25,331 nt of DNA from a virus: the IMG/VR virus record IMGVR_UViG_3300010160_004173, positions 1 through 25,331 of that record, one strand, 5' to 3'. The notes beneath the pieces are model-generated. The model had not been told where the DNA came from, made no database searches, and worked only from the letters and a program-made list of their open reading frames with translations. Below, piece by piece: positions 5,609 to 15,136 of this stretch. The translations under genes were made by a program, and so were the position numbers. Every line of letters starts with the position of its first letter. Within the stretch, counting starts at the first letter, position 1.

Positions 5609-6597
5609 TAATAGTATCTTCTGAGCACGCTAAGAAAGTGTTTCAAGAAAGTAAATTTACTAAACAAGATAGTAATAAACAAGTAATAGGGGAGATAAGC
5701 TTAAAGAGTAGAGTAGAGGTTTTATTTGAAGGAGCTGATATAAGAAAATATACACCCTTAGCTCTTCCAGTTAAATTAGATCTAGATGAGATTGATGAAC
5801 AATTCTGTTTCCTAACAGTAGGACATTGGTTACCGGGAGCAGTAGGAGAGGATAGAAAGAATATTGGATATACAATTAAGTCTTTCTTAGAAACGTTTAA
5901 GAATAAGCCTAAAGTAAAAAGACCAGCCTTAGTATTAAAAGTACAAGCAGGTTCAGGGACATCTATTATGGATAGAGAAGCTGTACTGGATAAGATTGAT
6001 ATAATAAGAAAAACAGTAAAAGGAGATTTACCAAACATATATGTACTTCATGGAGAGATGACAGATGCTGAGGTAAACGAATTATACAATCACGGTAAAA
6101 TAAAAGCAATGGTTTCCCTTACCAAAGGGGAAGGATTTGGAAGACCGTTATTAGAATTTAGTTTAGTAAATAAGCCAATTATAACATCAGCCTGGTCAGG
6201 ACACATTGACTTCTTAGATAGAGAATTTGTTAAGTACATAGGAGGAAATCTAACACAAGTACATCCTTCAGCATCAGTTGATAAAATGATCTTGAGAGAG
6301 AGTTCATGGTTTAGTGTTGATCCAATTGAAGTAGGAAGAGCCTATAAAGATGTTTATGATAATTACGAAAAGTGGAAAACTTTAGCTAAGAGACAGGGCC
6401 ATAAGAGTAGAACACAGTTTTCATATGAAAGTATGAGAGATACGTTAAATACCATTCTTACACAGTCTATTCCTGAGTTCCCTAAACAGATGCAGTTAAA
6501 ACTACCGCAACTTAAGAAGGTAGGAGCACCCCAAGCTAGGCAGATAGAGTTACCACAACTTAAAAAAGTAGAACTACCAAAATTACAAAAACTATAG
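5599..6597 (+). CDS. GT-B glycosyltransferase, C-terminal part with PQLKKV-repeat tail
   Basis: These 332 residues continue the gene at 5261 after a one-base frame change. The MDLVIVSSEHAKKVF linker leads into a donor-binding domain with FLTVGHWLPGAVGEDRKN and LKVQAGSGTS. The E-x7-E motif appears as GEGFGRPLLEF, followed by TSAWSGHIDFL. The domain matches GT4-like glycosyltransferases. The ATG at 5599 is the methionine of the conserved N-x-M-D-L stretch and probably not a real start. After the enzyme domain comes a tail of about 35 residues built of L-P-Q-L-K-K-V type units (LPQLKKV twice, plus LPKLQKL), basic and proline-spaced, which may be a binding or anchoring peptide. The next gene follows after 2 bases. 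Confidence 0.72.
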   Translation: MDLVIVSSEHAKKVFQESKFTKQDSNKQVIGEISLKSRVEVLFEGADIRKYTPLALPVKLDLDEIDEQFCFLTVGHWLPGAVGEDRKNIGYTIKSFLETFKNKPKVKRPALVLKVQAGSGTSIMDREAVLDKIDIIRKTVKGDLPNIYVLHGEMTDAEVNELYNHGKIKAMVSLTKGEGFGRPLLEFSLVNKPIITSAWSGHIDFLDREFVKYIGGNLTQVHPSASVDKMILRESSWFSVDPIEVGRAYKDVYDNYEKWKTLAKRQGHKSRTQFSYESMRDTLNTILTQSIPEFPKQMQLKLPQLKKVGAPQARQIELPQLKKVELPKLQKL

Positions 6598-6599
6598 TA

Positions 6600-7055
6600 A
6601 TGGAAAAGATGATAGATTGTCCACGTTGTGGAGGAAATGCTTGCTATGAACAGCAGGTTAGTGAAGAAGTAACAACAAGCTTCTGCTTTGGTTGCGGATT
6701 TACCACTAGTACTCTAATGGAAGTAAACAGTAAACTATTAACTGAAACATTAGAAACATCTCCGGAACTCTTTAAAGATCTTATGTTCACAGGAGCAGAC
6801 AATAAAGTATGGTTTCCAGCAACAGTTACTCTTCCAAATAAAGGAATGGTATTCTTAGATGGAACATCCAAAGAAAATTGGAGATGGGCTGCAGTACAGT
6901 CTGTAGAAATCCTAGCAGAAGAGAAAGACAAATTCCCAGAAGAACAAACCCATAAGATGGATATGAAAAACATCCAGTACTTTAATCAAAAAGATTTTAT
7001 GGAAGCATTAGACCGTATTGACTTTTTTGATATAGAAGTTGCTTCTGCAGAATAA
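6600..7055 (+). CDS. Zinc-ribbon protein of unknown function
   Basis: The 151-residue protein starts with CPRCGG (C7, C10) and CFGCGF (C29, C32), a C4 zinc ribbon in the first 35 residues, with an extra cysteine at C15. The remaining 115 residues are acidic and include two W/F-rich strands (VWFPATVTLP, NWRWAAVQSVEIL) and a C-terminal acidic helix. I recognise the layout as common in large phages but know of no assigned function. It lies between two glycosyltransferase genes with a 2-base gap upstream, so it is transcribed with them. Whether it takes part in glycan work or is simply a resident phage gene cannot be told. A transcription or protein-binding factor would be the usual guess for a zinc ribbon. 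Confidence 0.6.
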   Translation: MEKMIDCPRCGGNACYEQQVSEEVTTSFCFGCGFTTSTLMEVNSKLLTETLETSPELFKDLMFTGADNKVWFPATVTLPNKGMVFLDGTSKENWRWAAVQSVEILAEEKDKFPEEQTHKMDMKNIQYFNQKDFMEALDRIDFFDIEVASAE

Positions 7056-7073
7056 ATTTCATATCTTAATAAG

Positions 7074-7688
7074 ATGAAAATAAGTTATGCAATAACAGTT
7101 TGTAATGAATTGGAGGAAGTGAAAAGACTAGTCAACTTCCTCCTTTCCAACAAACGAAGAGAAGACGAGATAGTAATACTATACGACCAAAGTGGAGGCA
7201 CTCAAGAAGTACTCAACTACCTAGATACAATTAAAACACAAGTACAATTAAGAAGTGATTTTTTTAAAGGACACTTTGCCGATTGGAAAAATTTACTGAC
7301 ATCACACTGTACAGGAGATTATATCTTTCAGATAGATGCTGATGAGATTCCACATATCAATTTAATTGAAAACCTACCTGAAATGCTGAAGACTAACGAT
7401 GTTGATATGGTTAGAGTTCCTAGAGTAAATACTGTAGAGGGTTTAACTCAAGAGCATATACAGAAGTGGGGATGGAATGTAAATGAAAAAGGATGGGTGA
7501 ATTGGGCCGATTGGCAAATGAGAATCTATAAGAATGCCCCTCACATTAAATGGGTTAATAAAGTACATGAGGTATTAGAAGGATTTAAGATCCATGGAAT
7601 GCTTCCACCAGAAGAGGAATGGGCTTTATACCATCCAAAGACAATTCAACGACAAGAAAAACAAAATAATTATTATGACACATTATAA
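7074..7688 (+). CDS. Family 2 (GT-A) glycosyltransferase
   Basis: This 204-residue single-domain GT-A enzyme starts with ISYAITVCNELEEVKRLV, the usual first strand and helix of GT2 proteins. VILYDQSGG (D38) matches the D-x-S nucleotide contact. FQIDADEIP carries the D88-A-D90 metal motif that positions the donor sugar diphosphate. The HIKWVNKVHEVLEG segment resembles the HE pair seen in the WaaE/KdtX-like branch of GT2. Length is short but complete for the soluble members. Its last 14 bases overlap the start of the dehydrogenase gene at 7675. Donor and acceptor cannot be read from the sequence. A short palindrome (ATCTTA-A-TAAGAT) covers the start codon region. Confidence 0.8.
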   Translation: MKISYAITVCNELEEVKRLVNFLLSNKRREDEIVILYDQSGGTQEVLNYLDTIKTQVQLRSDFFKGHFADWKNLLTSHCTGDYIFQIDADEIPHINLIENLPEMLKTNDVDMVRVPRVNTVEGLTQEHIQKWGWNVNEKGWVNWADWQMRIYKNAPHIKWVNKVHEVLEGFKIHGMLPPEEEWALYHPKTIQRQEKQNNYYDTL

Positions 7689-10642: not shown

Positions 10643-11413
10643 ATGAAAATAGCATATACAATTAACGGATTAATAGGAGGACTATCAGGTAAGAATTTTC
10701 AACTACGTGACCAAGAAGTAGCACCGTTGATTGTTAACTATACTAGTAATACTGTTAACAGTTTTATTAAGCAGAATAATGATGTAGATTTTTTTATATA
10801 CAGCTGGCAGCCAGAACTAGAAGAGGCTTTTAACAGTGCTTATTCTCCTAAAGCTTCTTGTTACACAGAGCAGAAAAACTTTAGAATACCTTCTTGCATA
10901 CCAGACGATATACGATCACAGGCTCATTACTCTAGATGGTATGGAGTAAAGAGTTTAAGTGAAATGATACAGAAAACTGGAGTACAGTATGACTTGGTTG
11001 TTAATTGTAGAATGGATACATGTTGGAATAGGGAAATTGACTTCACTAAATTTAATACAGAGAAAATACACGTAGCATATCATCCAACACATACAGAGTA
11101 CTTACCATTTAATAAAGAAGGAAACGATATGTGTGACCATGTATTTGTATCTAATCCAGAAAACTTTTATAAAATTGCATCCTTGTTCGATAATCTAGAT
11201 GATTATGTTCAACCGACTAAACATAAATGCCACTACTCACATATTTCTAATCATTTATTAATTCCTCAACATTTAAGAGCAATTAACATAGTCGATAAGC
11301 TTGAAGCATCTATCCTTAATGACTTAGATGTAGGAAAAGGTACAGGAGATTACGACATATTCAGATATAAAAATATAACAAAAAAACAACTAACACAGCA
11401 GTATGAATTATAA
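10643..11413 (+). CDS. Putative glycosyltransferase-like protein (R-x-D motif)
   Basis: The 256-residue protein begins with KIAYTINGLIGG and continues through DVDFFIYSWQPEL. It then has SRWYGVKSLSEMIQ followed by YDLVVNCRMDTCW, with R123-M-D125. A W-[YS]-x-hydrophobic-K-helix before a Y-D-L-V-x-x-x-R-x-D strand is a pattern I associate with viral and bacterial nucleotide-sugar transferase-like proteins, where the aspartate acts in metal or donor binding. The rest (a H/S-rich second half with LIPQHLRA) is not diagnostic. It overlaps the cupin gene at 11403 by 11 bases. The family is not secure: glycan context and fold impression support a transferase, but no activity is shown. Confidence 0.45.
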   Translation: MKIAYTINGLIGGLSGKNFQLRDQEVAPLIVNYTSNTVNSFIKQNNDVDFFIYSWQPELEEAFNSAYSPKASCYTEQKNFRIPSCIPDDIRSQAHYSRWYGVKSLSEMIQKTGVQYDLVVNCRMDTCWNREIDFTKFNTEKIHVAYHPTHTEYLPFNKEGNDMCDHVFVSNPENFYKIASLFDNLDDYVQPTKHKCHYSHISNHLLIPQHLRAINIVDKLEASILNDLDVGKGTGDYDIFRYKNITKKQLTQQYEL

Positions 11414-11747
11414 AGAACAACGCCCATGGGGTCAATTTGAAAATTTACTAGATAGTGAACTATGCAAAGTAAAGCAGATTACAATTAAACCAGGACAAGC
11501 ACCAAGTTATCAATACCACTTTAAAAGAGAAGAAGTTTGGGTTGTTGTAAAAGGTACAGGACATTTAAAACTAAACGATAGTATCTTCCCTGCCCGACCT
11601 GGAATCATCTTCCACATACCTGTAACAGCTAAACATCAAATTAAGAACACAGGAGAAGAAGATCTAATCTTTATTGAAGTTCAATTAGGAAGTTATTTCG
11701 GAGAAGATGATATTGTAAGATTAGAAGACAACTATGGCAGAGTATAA
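11403..11747 (+). CDS. Cupin of the mannose-6-phosphate isomerase type II family
   Basis: This 114-residue single cupin domain matches the C-terminal domain of type II phosphomannose isomerase/mannose-1-phosphate guanylyltransferase along its whole length. It has RPWGQFENL at the start, IKPGQAPSYQYHFKREE with a metal-binding His and Glu, WVVVKGTG, IPVTAKHQIKNTG with the late histidine, and GEDDIVRLEDNYGR at the end. The usual guanylyltransferase half is not fused; instead the next gene is a different nucleotidyltransferase, overlapping by 14 bases. It may isomerise fructose-6-phosphate to mannose-6-phosphate, or serve another sugar phosphate made by this locus. In the first motif the usual HHH-type run is YHF, so metal binding is worth testing. 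Confidence 0.82.
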   Translation: MNYKEQRPWGQFENLLDSELCKVKQITIKPGQAPSYQYHFKREEVWVVVKGTGHLKLNDSIFPARPGIIFHIPVTAKHQIKNTGEEDLIFIEVQLGSYFGEDDIVRLEDNYGRV

Positions 11748-13269
11748 GGTATTAATAACAACAAGCGGATTAGGGAGCAGGTTAGGTGAGTTAACTGACT
11801 ATACAAACAAGTCGTTAGTTAGAGTTGCTGATAAGCCAGCAATATCTTATATTGTAGAATCATATCCTGAAGATACTGAGTTTGTAATTACGTTAGGACA
11901 TTTTGGCGATCATGTAAAACAGTTCCTTCAATTAGCTTATCCAACTTATAATTTTACATTTGTCGAAGTGAATAACTATAAAGGCCCTGGCTCAAGTCTA
12001 GGCTATTCAATATTACAATGTAAGCATGAAATAAACTGCCCTTTTATATTTCATGCATCGGATACTGTTATTACGAACTTTTCAATTCCTAATACAGATA
12101 CCAACTGGGTGGCAGGTTCTCATAAAGAAGAATCCTCTCAATACAGAACACTAAACCTCAATAGTAATAAACTAGTAAAGGTTAATGAAAAAGGAGAGTT
12201 AGGTTACGATTTTTCCTATGTAGGGTTAGCTGGAATTAAAGACTATGAATTATTCTTTTATAATTTAGAGAAACTAATCTACAAAGGTCATGAAGATACT
12301 TCAGATATTCATGTGATTAATAATATGGTTAGCGAAGTAGAGTTCCTGTACAAAGATATTCCGTATGGGAATTGGTTCGATATAGGAAATACCTCAGAGT
12401 TAATTAAAACAAGAAAGCAATTTAATTCAAGTATAGAGGTACTAGACAAGAAGGATGAGTCTATATTCTTCTTTGATGATTTTATTATTAAATTCTTTAG
12501 CGATAAGACTATTAATGCCAATCGAGTTAAAAGAGGAATCCAATTAAAACATTTAGTACCAGAGATAATAGGTTCATCTAATAACTTCTATAAGTATAAG
12601 AAAGCTGAAGGAAAGTTATTTTCAAAATCAGTTAATATTGATAAATTTAAAAAGTTTTTAGATTGGACATATGAAAATTTATGGATTACATCTGATAGTT
12701 CAATTGACGATAAGTGTTATGATTTTTATATAAACAAGACTAAAAAGAGATTATCACAATACCTAAACTCTAATACAGACACTATAGAGGTAATTAACGG
12801 AATTAATACTCCCTCAGTATATGAAATGCTAAGCAGTATAGATGAGGAGTGGTTATGTAATGGAATAGCATCACAATTTCATGGAGACTTTATTTTAGAT
12901 AATATTATTGAAACTGAAGATGGATTTACATTAATCGATTGGAGACAAGACTTTGCAGGTGATTTAGAAGTAGGAGATATATATTATGATTTAGCTAAAT
13001 TAAACCATAACTTAACTTTAAACCACGATATACTAAATAGAAATTTATTTAACTTCTCGAAGGAAGATTGTTACATATTAACAAATAGTAAATTAAATGA
13101 ATGTCAAAAAGTTTTACATCAATTTATTATAGATAAAGGATTTGACCTTAATAAAGTAGAAGTACTAACTTCCATTATTTGGTTAAATATGGCTCCATTG
13201 CATGAGTATCCATTAAATAAGTTTTTATTCTATTTCGGAAAATATACTTTAAACCAAAAATTAAATTAA
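11734..13269 (+). CDS. Fused sugar nucleotidyltransferase and APH/choline-kinase-like phosphotransferase
   Basis: This 511-residue protein joins two enzymes. Residues 1-230 are a sugar-phosphate nucleotidyltransferase: SGLGSRLGELT is the nucleotide loop, K26 in TNKSLV follows, HASD110 is the metal aspartate, and GNWFDIGN closes the domain. Residues 240-511 resemble aminoglycoside/choline kinases: FHGDFILDN gives catalytic D385 and N390, and LIDWRQ gives metal-binding D402. The protein could phosphorylate a sugar or small alcohol and activate it with a nucleotide, as LicA and LicC do for choline with separate proteins, or as HldE does for heptose with other folds. It overlaps the cupin by 14 bases and is followed by a methyltransferase, an aldolase-like gene and a phosphatase. 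The substrate is unknown. Confidence 0.8.
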   Translation: MAEYKVLITTSGLGSRLGELTDYTNKSLVRVADKPAISYIVESYPEDTEFVITLGHFGDHVKQFLQLAYPTYNFTFVEVNNYKGPGSSLGYSILQCKHEINCPFIFHASDTVITNFSIPNTDTNWVAGSHKEESSQYRTLNLNSNKLVKVNEKGELGYDFSYVGLAGIKDYELFFYNLEKLIYKGHEDTSDIHVINNMVSEVEFLYKDIPYGNWFDIGNTSELIKTRKQFNSSIEVLDKKDESIFFFDDFIIKFFSDKTINANRVKRGIQLKHLVPEIIGSSNNFYKYKKAEGKLFSKSVNIDKFKKFLDWTYENLWITSDSSIDDKCYDFYINKTKKRLSQYLNSNTDTIEVINGINTPSVYEMLSSIDEEWLCNGIASQFHGDFILDNIIETEDGFTLIDWRQDFAGDLEVGDIYYDLAKLNHNLTLNHDILNRNLFNFSKEDCYILTNSKLNECQKVLHQFIIDKGFDLNKVEVLTSIIWLNMAPLHEYPLNKFLFYFGKYTLNQKLN

Positions 13270-13278
13270 AATAAAATT

Positions 13279-13818
13279 ATGAACAGAACATTAAATCACG
13301 CAATTACCTTACTTCATCCTGAGTACAAACATGTACTTGAGTTTGGAGTAAATACCGGAGGAACAATTACACAGTTACGAAACTCTCTACCAGAAGAATA
13401 TAAACTTTATGGATTTGACTCCTTTGAAGGATTACCTGAGGCTTGGACCGGCACATGGGCAAAAAAAGGAGACATGTCAACTAACGGAGTTATGCCTACT
13501 ATACCTAACGTTACATTATATAAAGGATGGTTTACAGATACAATACCTCAGTATAGAGAAGTAGCTGCTCCATTTGCATTACTTCATGTAGATTGTGACT
13601 TATATAGTTCAACCATAGATGTACTTTATGGATTAAAAGAATACATACTTCCAGGAACAGTTATTGTATTTGACGAATGGTATTACAATCATAAAAATAC
13701 TGAAGAGAATAGACAACACGAACAAAAAGCTTTCTACGAATGGGTTAATGAATTTGGAATCGAGTACCAACTACTAGACCAAGTAGAAGACGAAAGACAA
13801 ATTGTAGTAATATTATGA
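13279..13818 (+). CDS. SAM-dependent methyltransferase, TylF/macrocin-O-methyltransferase-like
   Basis: The 179-residue class I methyltransferase has LEFGVNTGGTI (E21-F-G-V) as the SAM-binding glycine motif and LYGFDSFEGLPEAW as the acidic-loop signature typical of TylF-like sugar O-methyltransferases. It also has LLHVDCDLYSSTIDVL (D105, D107) and VIVFDEWYYN with metal-site D132/E133. These residues form the divalent-metal centre used to deprotonate a sugar hydroxyl. It should O-methylate a sugar or sugar nucleotide made in this cluster. The length is about 60 residues shorter than TylF, mainly at the ends, but the core is whole. Its TGA overlaps the start of the next gene (ATGATG at 13815-13820). 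Confidence 0.83.
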   Translation: MNRTLNHAITLLHPEYKHVLEFGVNTGGTITQLRNSLPEEYKLYGFDSFEGLPEAWTGTWAKKGDMSTNGVMPTIPNVTLYKGWFTDTIPQYREVAAPFALLHVDCDLYSSTIDVLYGLKEYILPGTVIVFDEWYYNHKNTEENRQHEQKAFYEWVNEFGIEYQLLDQVEDERQIVVIL

Positions 13819-14717
13819 TGCCAAAAATTTACATAGGCCCTATGACTAAAAATGTTGTAGATGCCATAATAGAATATTCTAATCAAACAAAAACGGCTAT
13901 AGGATTAATACCTTCACGTCGTCAGGTTGAGCTTAATGGCGGTTATGTAAATAATTGGACCACAGAAGAATTTAGTAAGTATGTGAAAGCAAACTCTACT
14001 ACCATATTACTAAAGAGAGACCATTCAGGCCCGTCACAAGGACAGTTTGAGGATGATGGTCTGGAGTCGTTAACTGAAGATTGTAAGTATCTAGACTTAA
14101 TTCATATTGATCCTTGGAAAAAATATTCGGAATTTAAGTTAGGGGTACAAGAGACAATTAGAATGATTAACCACTGCTATAACTTAAATCCAGAAATAGA
14201 GTATGAAGTTGGTACAGAAGAAGCTATAAGAAGATTTGAAGTTAATGAATTAGATGAATTAGTTACTATATTAAGAGATGCTCTAGCTCCTGAAGTGTTT
14301 ACTAAGATAAAGTATTTAGTTATACAATCAGGTACTTCGCTAAAAGGAAACACCCAAACAGGAGCTTACGATAGTAAAAGGTTATTAGATATGATAGCAG
14401 TAGCTAAGAGCTCTAATCTACTAACAAAAGAACATAACGGAGATTATATACCAGTATCAATTGTTCATGAAAAATTTAATCTAGGACTAGATGCAATTAA
14501 TATAGCACCAGAATTTGGACTAATTGAAACACAGACTTATTTAGATTTCATAACAGACAAACAATTCATAAATGACTTTTGGAAGATCTGTTATGACTCT
14601 AAAAAATGGACTAAGTGGGTAGATAGTACTTTTGATCCTATAGAGAACAAAATAGAGTTAATAAAAATCTGTGGACATTATGTAATATCTTCTCCTGAAT
14701 TTGTTGGATTAGCGTAA
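13815..14717 (+). CDS. KbaZ/GatZ-like (tagatose-bisphosphate aldolase accessory subunit fold) protein
   Basis: The motif series of this 300-residue protein lines up with KbaZ/GatZ, the TIM-barrel subunit paired with class II tagatose-1,6-bisphosphate aldolases. KRDHSGP (67-73) corresponds to GDHLGP, LIHIDPWKKY to the KIHLDxS strand, and YEVGTEE to YVIGTE. LVIQSGTSLKG corresponds to LVVQPG, VHEK to the next histidine strand, and AINIAPEFGLIET to the last phosphate loop. In E. coli the protein is a helper without proven activity of its own. No KbaY/GatY partner is seen here, so this copy may act alone on a sugar phosphate. It lies between a methyltransferase and a HAD phosphatase in a block with a nucleotidyltransferase-kinase. 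Either ATG at 13815 or 13818 could start it. Confidence 0.72.
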   Translation: MMPKIYIGPMTKNVVDAIIEYSNQTKTAIGLIPSRRQVELNGGYVNNWTTEEFSKYVKANSTTILLKRDHSGPSQGQFEDDGLESLTEDCKYLDLIHIDPWKKYSEFKLGVQETIRMINHCYNLNPEIEYEVGTEEAIRRFEVNELDELVTILRDALAPEVFTKIKYLVIQSGTSLKGNTQTGAYDSKRLLDMIAVAKSSNLLTKEHNGDYIPVSIVHEKFNLGLDAINIAPEFGLIETQTYLDFITDKQFINDFWKICYDSKKWTKWVDSTFDPIENKIELIKICGHYVISSPEFVGLA

Positions 14718-14776
14718 AAGTTCGTATCTTGATAGAGAGATACAAGATAGAGTTATACAGAAACTAGTACAATTAG
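14718..14776 (+). promoter_or_regulatory. 59-nt spacer with two mutually exclusive small hairpins
   Basis: This is one of the few real gaps in the cluster. GTATCT (14724-14729) can pair with AGATAC (14738-14743). Alternatively TATCTTG (14725-14731) pairs with CAAGATA (14743-14749). The two stems share bases so only one can form. No T run follows, so it is not a standard terminator. It may hold a promoter, a processing site or a translation control element for the phosphatase gene at 14777. Evidence is structural only. Confidence 0.3.
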
Positions 14777-15136
14777 ATGGATAGTAGGCCAAAAACAATA
14801 ATATGCGATGTAGACGGAACCTTGGTAGAGCATGTCAATCCTGCAACAGCTGCTAATATATACCACGATATGAAATTACTGCCAGGCACTTTAGAAAAGT
14901 TAATGGAATGGGAAGCAAATGGATATAAAATAATATTACTTACCGGACGTAAAGAATCAATGAGAGCTGTTACTGAAACTCAACTATCTAGAGTAGGTAT
15001 TTTTTATGACGAGTTAATAATGGGAGTAGGCGGAGGAGCTAGGTACTTAGTTAATGATGTAAAACCAGACGGTGAAAAGGCTGCATTTGCTATTAATGTA
15101 AAACGTAATGAAGGTATAACTAGTATTAAGATATGA
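14777..15136 (+). CDS. Small HAD-family phosphatase
   Basis: This 119-residue minimal HAD hydrolase has motif I as IICDVDGTLV with nucleophile D11 and D13, and motif II as IILLTGR with T56. Motifs III/IV appear as YLVNDVKPDGEKA with D94 and nearby lysines. There is almost no cap domain, so it could act on fairly open substrates such as sugar phosphates. In heptose pathways a HAD enzyme (GmhB) removes the C7 phosphate between the kinase and nucleotidyltransferase steps. A comparable job here, next to a kinase-nucleotidyltransferase fusion and an aldolase-like protein, is a reasonable inference. It ends in ATGA shared with the next glycosyltransferase. A polynucleotide 3'-phosphatase role is possible but not favoured by context. 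Confidence 0.78.
   Translation: MDSRPKTIICDVDGTLVEHVNPATAANIYHDMKLLPGTLEKLMEWEANGYKIILLTGRKESMRAVTETQLSRVGIFYDELIMGVGGGARYLVNDVKPDGEKAAFAINVKRNEGITSIKI

Follow-up and report, generated by a model that had tools for sequence, protein, structure and literature searches.

A phage-borne gene cassette proposed to supply a nucleotide-activated rare sugar

A block of five genes in the virus record IMGVR_UViG_3300010160_004173 (IMG/VR; 25,331 bases, analyzed over its whole length and referred to here as the window) probably specifies a complete set of enzymes for turning a ketose-phosphate of the host into a nucleotide-activated rare sugar, to be used by the glycan gene cluster that surrounds it. The genes (Table 1) encode a cupin (CUP), a nucleotidyltransferase-kinase fusion (FUS), a methyltransferase (MT), a GatZ/KbaZ-like barrel (BAR) and a small HAD phosphatase (HAD). 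We are evenly balanced on the wider proposal of a modular nucleotide-sugar pathway that has not been described before and is carried chiefly by marine T4-like phages. In it, a swappable ketose-phosphate epimerase (GatZ-like or RPE-like) and a swappable isomerase (cupin or HxlB-like) would act ahead of the fused anomeric kinase and nucleotidyltransferase, and the nucleotide-activated rare sugar produced (talose-type or other) would be one not known from phages or by this route. No published description of the cassette or the pathway was found in the openly licensed papers searched.

Linkage, fusion and replacement of the cassette genes

A search with BAR returned 48 IMG/VR loci (46-73% identity), around which FUS was present in 48/48, CUP and HAD each in 46/48, and the window's type of MT in 6/48. 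Searching in the other direction, with FUS as the query, added 79 loci, and BAR lay in the fetched stretch of 76 of them; of the three loci without BAR, two are truncated at contig ends and one, L219, is described below (L numbers denote loci, G numbers genomes). After pooling and deduplication, 76 distinct phage loci had FUS with both flanks complete; among these, BAR was found in 75, CUP in 74 and a phosphatase in 73 by direct match, or in 75 once the HAD-CUP fusions of L163 and L167 are counted. Because the pooled set takes in loci that were found through BAR, the FUS-only figure (76/79) is fairer. Optional neighbors in the 76 loci were a C-methyltransferase-like protein (17 loci), an AroE-like dehydrogenase (14) and a TylF-type methyltransferase (11), so that core co-occurrence is at least 97% versus 14-22% for these neighbors. 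The core module is CUP, FUS, BAR and HAD, with linkage far beyond chance, and its genes were found together in approximately 100 distinct phage loci and several bacterial genomes. A preliminary description of the window had placed MT inside the pathway, and the counts (6/48; 11/76) rule it out as a core member. That description could have failed on two further points, the genes never co-occurring in other genomes or the barrel falling outside the KbaZ/GatZ family; neither was the case, because the genes do co-occur and, as set out below, the KbaZ/GatZ-type barrel holds.

Gene fusions, the usual sign of a shared pathway, involve two pairs of core genes. CUP and FUS form one open reading frame (ORF) of ~640 aa in 16 phage loci, followed every time by an AroE (shikimate dehydrogenase)-like gene and then BAR, and the bacterial loci L061 and L063 resemble these. 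The AroE-like protein that accompanies every CUP-FUS fusion (e.g., L002 9378-9992) is ~203-228 aa long in phages; one of 285 aa lies beside FUS in L233 (7138-7995), where the contig edge comes right after CUP. HAD and CUP form a single ORF in L163 (9310-10014, 234 aa) and L167 (9292-10014, 240 aa).

Individual steps are also filled by different proteins. Three HAD families replace one another as the phosphatase across cassettes: the first is the small HAD of the window, the second kind is a 125-aa HAD that is BcbF/EcbF-like below threshold (TIGR01689, 38.4 vs 162 bits), and the third is a KdsC-like HAD of 150-196 aa, which scores below the KdsC model cut-off where scanned and is found in L066, L067, L069, L070, L092, L219, L225, L226 and L234. 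In the Bacteroidota locus L225, FUS adjoins an RPE-family protein, an HxlB-type protein and a KdsC-like HAD, with no BAR or CUP; the first two pass their NCBIfam cut-offs (ribulose-phosphate 3-epimerase model, 219.9 vs 212.6; HxlB model, 184.1 vs 160). The phage contigs L219 and L247 hold the same four protein types, with the RPE-type and HxlB-type proteins of L219 below the NCBIfam cut-offs and its RPE-type ORF short (155 aa). As a single query, the L219 FUS matched only itself; an alignment-based search added L247. The presence of an RPE-family and HxlB-type pair at the usual place of BAR and CUP is our main argument that BAR epimerizes and CUP isomerizes. Upstream of the L219 set, two ORFs (6548-7626) resemble, by eye, the halves of a transketolase, which suggests a transketolase-derived ketose as the substrate in that locus.

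In the window, the five ORFs sit exactly where the preliminary description had placed them, and its claim of a five-gene block with overlaps or short gaps is confirmed by the ORF coordinates and the Pfam and NCBIfam assignments: CUP and FUS overlap by 14 bases, FUS and MT are 9 bases apart, MT and BAR overlap by 4 bases, and 59 bases separate BAR from HAD. The surrounding cluster encodes family-1 and family-2 glycosyltransferases, a GNAT acetyltransferase, a UDP-glucose/GDP-mannose dehydrogenase-type protein, a DegT aminotransferase and an NAD-dependent epimerase. No tRNA genes were detected in the window.

Table 1. Positions and predicted products of the five-gene block
Gene	Coordinates	Strand	Length	Predicted product
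CUP	11403-11747	+	114 aa	MannoseP_isomer (PF01050) cupin; proposed ketose/aldose-phosphate isomerase
FUS	11734-13269	+	511 aa	nucleotidyltransferase (aa 1-235) and APH-type kinase (aa 238-511)
MT	13279-13818	+	179 aa	TylF/Methyltransf_24-type methyltransferase; optional insert, non-core
BAR	13815-14717	+	300 aa	GatZ/KbaZ-like TIM barrel; proposed ketose-phosphate epimerase (retro-aldol/aldol)
HAD	14777-15136	+	119 aa	small HAD phosphatase; proposed to remove the non-anomeric phosphate

The barrel and the other predicted enzymes

The BAR protein of the window alone gave no Pfam or PHROG match at E ≤ 1, PF08013 included, and its aldolase and GatZ matches in NCBIfam were all sub-threshold. The PF08013 cut-off (26.7 bits) was reached by the BAR proteins of bacterial cassettes (L234, 36.3; L226, 39.9; L092, 32.5). 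A profile of 19 BAR relatives searched against the PDB matched a KbaY-type class II aldolase (8q57, 1e-6) and a GatZ-like structure (0.0016). For the AlphaFold2 model (predicted local distance difference test, pLDDT, 89.9), the structural ranking by VIA Z placed GatZ 2fiq at 25.6 over 295 residues, 3txv at 24.0, tagatose 4-epimerase 9kcs at 21.6, UxaE at 21.0 and class II aldolases at 19.1 or less. Residues H70, E135 and H207 of BAR, invariant in the 19 relatives, align with the GatZ metal ligands His88, Glu171 and His257, giving a GatZ-type His/Glu/His site, unlike the three-His site of fructose-bisphosphate (FBP) aldolase (PMC11907403). GatZ and KbaZ are C4-epimerases that interconvert fructose-6-phosphate and tagatose-6-phosphate (PMC11907403), and the mechanism proposed for UxaE is retro-aldol cleavage, rotation and re-addition (PMC11194214). 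Given the fold, the metal triad and the chemistry of GatZ/KbaZ and UxaE, we interpret BAR as a GatZ/UxaE-group epimerase that has a substrate of its own. The KbaZ/GatZ-like barrel of the preliminary description is thus upheld by the profile matches and by a predicted fold closest to GatZ and the tagatose/tagaturonate epimerases; its placing of the barrel at a sugar-phosphate-forming step gives way to epimerization as the more likely role, GatZ and KbaZ being C4-epimerases.

BAR appears frameshifted near its 3´ end (~14,700-14,712), with the loss of a C-terminal helix of ~20 aa that lies outside the conserved core. Beyond the stop at 14717, the next frame (window 14700-14787) reads RKSSYLDREIQDRVIQKLVQLDG, similar to the C-terminal helix in L001, the nearest relative (score 38 vs 27 for the best of 500 shuffles); three other relatives were without such a signal. 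This break looks like a frameshift, either real or a sequencing artefact.

In a FastTree of 113 proteins, among whose tips the L226 and L234 proteins are absent, the cassette, phage and Flavobacteriaceae BAR proteins form one clade (support 0.86), beside a branch from phosphotransferase system (PTS) operons (0.96). The marine Bacteroidetes/Flavobacteriaceae loci (L050-L060, L062, L065, L068) carry a barrel 52-61% identical to that of the window, without other cassette genes; this stand-alone barrel nests within the phage clade of the tree and adjoins succinate dehydrogenase genes in L052 and L056, and no convincing FUS relative was found in those marine Flavobacteriaceae genomes. A GatZ/KbaZ-like branch of 30% identity (L071-L129, minus L092) occurs in enterobacteria, enterococci, streptococci and clostridia. 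In the two loci inspected, its gene belongs to a PTS IIB/IIC operon, which also encodes a transaldolase in the Klebsiella locus (L082) and a PTS-type regulator in that of Streptococcus suis (L096). Four "Listeria phage" records (OR848179, OR846727, OR846732, OR848100) also hold a barrel homologue, 29% identical and like that of the PTS branch, possibly as bacterial sequence inside phage records.

CUP matches PF01050 at 6e-29 (101 bits vs a cut-off of 23.6) and scores 107.7, with 372.95 needed, against TIGR01479, the model of the bifunctional GDP-mannose pyrophosphorylase/phosphomannose isomerase (GMP/PMI), which is a two-domain protein. Loss of the cupin metal site was raised because an HxH reading fails, and dropped as the pattern QxHx4E...H is conserved (H39, E44 and H78 in 57/57 aligned sequences, Q37 in 55/57). 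The N-terminus of FUS (whole model, pLDDT 92.6) is an NTP-transferase (Arch_glmU, 3e-12), with residues G12, G14, K26, D110 and W214-D216-G218 invariant in 23 sequences. In the kinase half, the APH motifs HGDxxxxN/DW are intact (HGD383-385, N390 and D402-W403 invariant in 23/23) and PF01636 matches, weakly, all nine of the nine kinase domains scanned; searched by profile against solved structures, this domain gave no significant match, and the fold search with whole FUS was filled by the nucleotidyltransferase (NT) domain, so the kinase fold is assigned from the motifs and the weak Pfam matches. MT matches PF05711 (6e-14). HAD matches several HAD families in Pfam and NCBIfam (HAD-IIIA model, the type of GmhB, 26.5 bits vs a 44.6 cut-off), and the DxDGT motif was found in 51/51 relatives checked.

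Proposed pathway and alternatives

In the pathway we propose, BAR would act first, as a metal-dependent enzyme that epimerizes a ketose phosphate through a retro-aldol/aldol reaction, probably at C4, and CUP would turn the ketose phosphate into an aldose phosphate. Phosphorylation of the anomeric carbon would then fall to the APH-type half of FUS and removal of the original phosphate to HAD, either by way of an aldose bisphosphate or, after prior dephosphorylation, by way of the aldose-1-phosphate, and the NT half of FUS would join the sugar-1-phosphate to a nucleotide. Kinase and phosphatase would together replace a phosphomutase, as in nucleoside diphosphate (NDP)-heptose synthesis, a logic that the preliminary description had recognized and for which isomerase, kinase, phosphatase and nucleotidyltransferase are all encoded in the block. 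The product would be passed to the glycosyltransferases and sugar-modifying enzymes encoded nearby. Most simply, the substrate would be fructose-6-phosphate, with sedoheptulose-7-phosphate as the main alternative; by analogy, GatZ-type C4 epimerization of fructose-6-phosphate followed by a mannose-type isomerase would give a talose-series product. What the analysis establishes is which genes are present and linked, how they are fused, the predicted folds, the conservation of catalytic residues and the replacement of steps by non-orthologous proteins; each reaction, the order of steps, the sugar (of the talose or galactose series if made from fructose-6-phosphate, or a heptose) and the nucleotide are inferred. 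As a reading of the sequence, the earlier suggestion that the phage encodes its own route to an unusual activated sugar is supported.

Several observations weigh against this scheme. The HxlB family interconverts 2- and 3-ketoses rather than ketoses and aldoses. Two pocket residues reported as conserved in the GatZ family differ in BAR (K279 to N229 and E44 to I32), and the PTS-operon branch (L082) likewise has N and I at these positions; the substrate is therefore unlikely to be that of GatZ itself and, judged by these changes and by a window protein short of the Pfam cut-off, BAR is not a GatZ orthologue. The occurrence of BAR without FUS in marine Flavobacteriaceae indicates that it can also work independently of the cassette. 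For the NT domain, the top match by both fold and sequence is LicC, which acts on phosphocholine, although sugar enzymes score within 1 Z unit of it. Finally, the AroE-like dehydrogenase found in many loci, including all CUP-FUS fusions, is left unexplained by the scheme.

The alternative nearest to the picture in the preliminary description is that BAR is a true aldolase, joining dihydroxyacetone phosphate or dihydroxyacetone to an aldehyde to form a longer, branched or unusual ketose phosphate that CUP, FUS and HAD would activate. Such a role would fit the top PDB match of the profile by sequence (the class II aldolase 8q57, 1e-6) and the Asn that BAR has at the GatZ Lys279 position, where GatY seemingly has Asn too (KINVATE, by eye, not formally aligned). 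We consider it unlikely, because the fold resembles GatZ and the epimerases (Z 20-25.6) more than it does aldolases (19.1 or less), because Glu serves as second metal ligand, a feature of GatZ, where aldolases have His, and because L225, L219 and L247 have an RPE-family epimerase, not an aldolase, at the place of BAR.

The LicC match and the AroE-like dehydrogenase, present in every CUP-FUS fusion locus and beside FUS in L233, would both be accommodated if the product were a CDP-activated polyol or alcohol made by LicA/LicC-like logic, in which reduction of a ketose would give a polyol for the kinase to phosphorylate and the phosphorylated polyol would then be joined to CMP. This we hold to be slightly the less probable of the two, since UDP-glucose pyrophosphorylases tie with LicC 1jyk for the NT domain (VIA Z 26.5 vs 26.9, within 1 Z unit), most loci, the window included, have no reductase in the core (AroE in 14/76), and the cupin isomerase would have no clear role. 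That the block is no common pathway at all, with unrelated glycan genes merely adjoining in a variable phage glycan island, might be suggested by its position in a mixed cluster of glycan genes, the rest of which differ between phages, but this is highly improbable and is largely refuted by the linkage counts, and it is also countered by the CUP-FUS and HAD-CUP fusions, by the same cassette in several bacterial phyla and by the replacement of steps with enzymes of similar function.

Distribution and relation to known systems

The T4-type major capsid protein gp23 was found in 8/10 searched contigs longer than 100 kb, and thus most carriers with enough sequence look T4-like. In bacteria, FUS (E ≤ 1e-40) was detected in 3/395 sampled Bacteroidota and 7/398 sampled Pseudomonadota genomes, samples that include the two centre genomes. 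BAR lies beside FUS in seven of these ten genomes (G047, G278, G049, G580, G612, G465 and G477); G296 has the RPE/HxlB pair, G500 is cut by a contig end, and G469 (L236) has FUS and CUP with no BAR seen nearby. Further cassettes were found in metagenome-assembled genomes labelled Gribaldobacteria, Yanofskybacteria, Bacteriovoracaceae and an archaeon. If the proposed pathway is correct, a common class of marine phages brings a complete line for an unusual activated sugar, and GatZ-type epimerases, so far known from sugar breakdown and rare-sugar production, have a new biosynthetic use. The pathway would also tell which sugar phages build into their own or host surface glycans and would help to make sense of the relatives that stand alone in marine Flavobacteriaceae and of those in gut-bacterial PTS operons. 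The repeated swaps of unrelated enzymes of like function make its logic testable with four small proteins.

Among known systems, NDP-heptose synthesis (GmhA, HddA, GmhB and HddC, or the HldE fusion) has the same ketose-phosphate isomerization, anomeric kinase, phosphatase and nucleotidyltransferase; kinase and transferase are fused as in HldE, and HddC-type proteins are among the NT-domain matches. The cassette differs in that its isomerase is a cupin and not the SIS-family GmhA (SIS proteins, there HxlB-type, occur only in L219, L247 and L225), its kinase is APH-type rather than GHMP (HddA) or ribokinase-type (HldE), and it adds a GatZ-like epimerase. The marine virus AG-345-E15 (L224 10756-12768) has, besides HAD-CUP-FUS-BAR, what look by eye like an HddA-type kinase, another cupin and an HddC-type transferase; seemingly carrying the cassette together with a separate heptose-type route, it suggests that the cassette and NDP-heptose synthesis are not simple alternatives.

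GDP-mannose synthesis (GMP/PMI of the ManC/AlgA type) likewise joins a PMI-type cupin to a sugar nucleotidyltransferase, and CUP matches the PMI domain of TIGR01479. The cassette instead lacks a phosphomannomutase step, uses kinase plus phosphatase, has an extra epimerase and is arranged CUP-NT-kinase rather than NT-CUP. A plasmid search with FUS returned only distant capsule relatives. A small HAD (BcbF/EcbF) adjoins an NT-APH fusion in the capsule locus of a Citrobacter plasmid (L222) and in Enterococcus phage Planchet (L223), as in the cassette, but the FUS proteins are only ~20-28% identical and no BAR or CUP neighbor is annotated there. With GatZ/KbaZ, UxaE and the tagatose 4-epimerases, BAR shares its fold and the His/Glu/His metal site; it is shorter (300-330 aa), two GatZ pocket residues are changed, and it is found in glycan biosynthesis clusters rather than in sugar breakdown operons.

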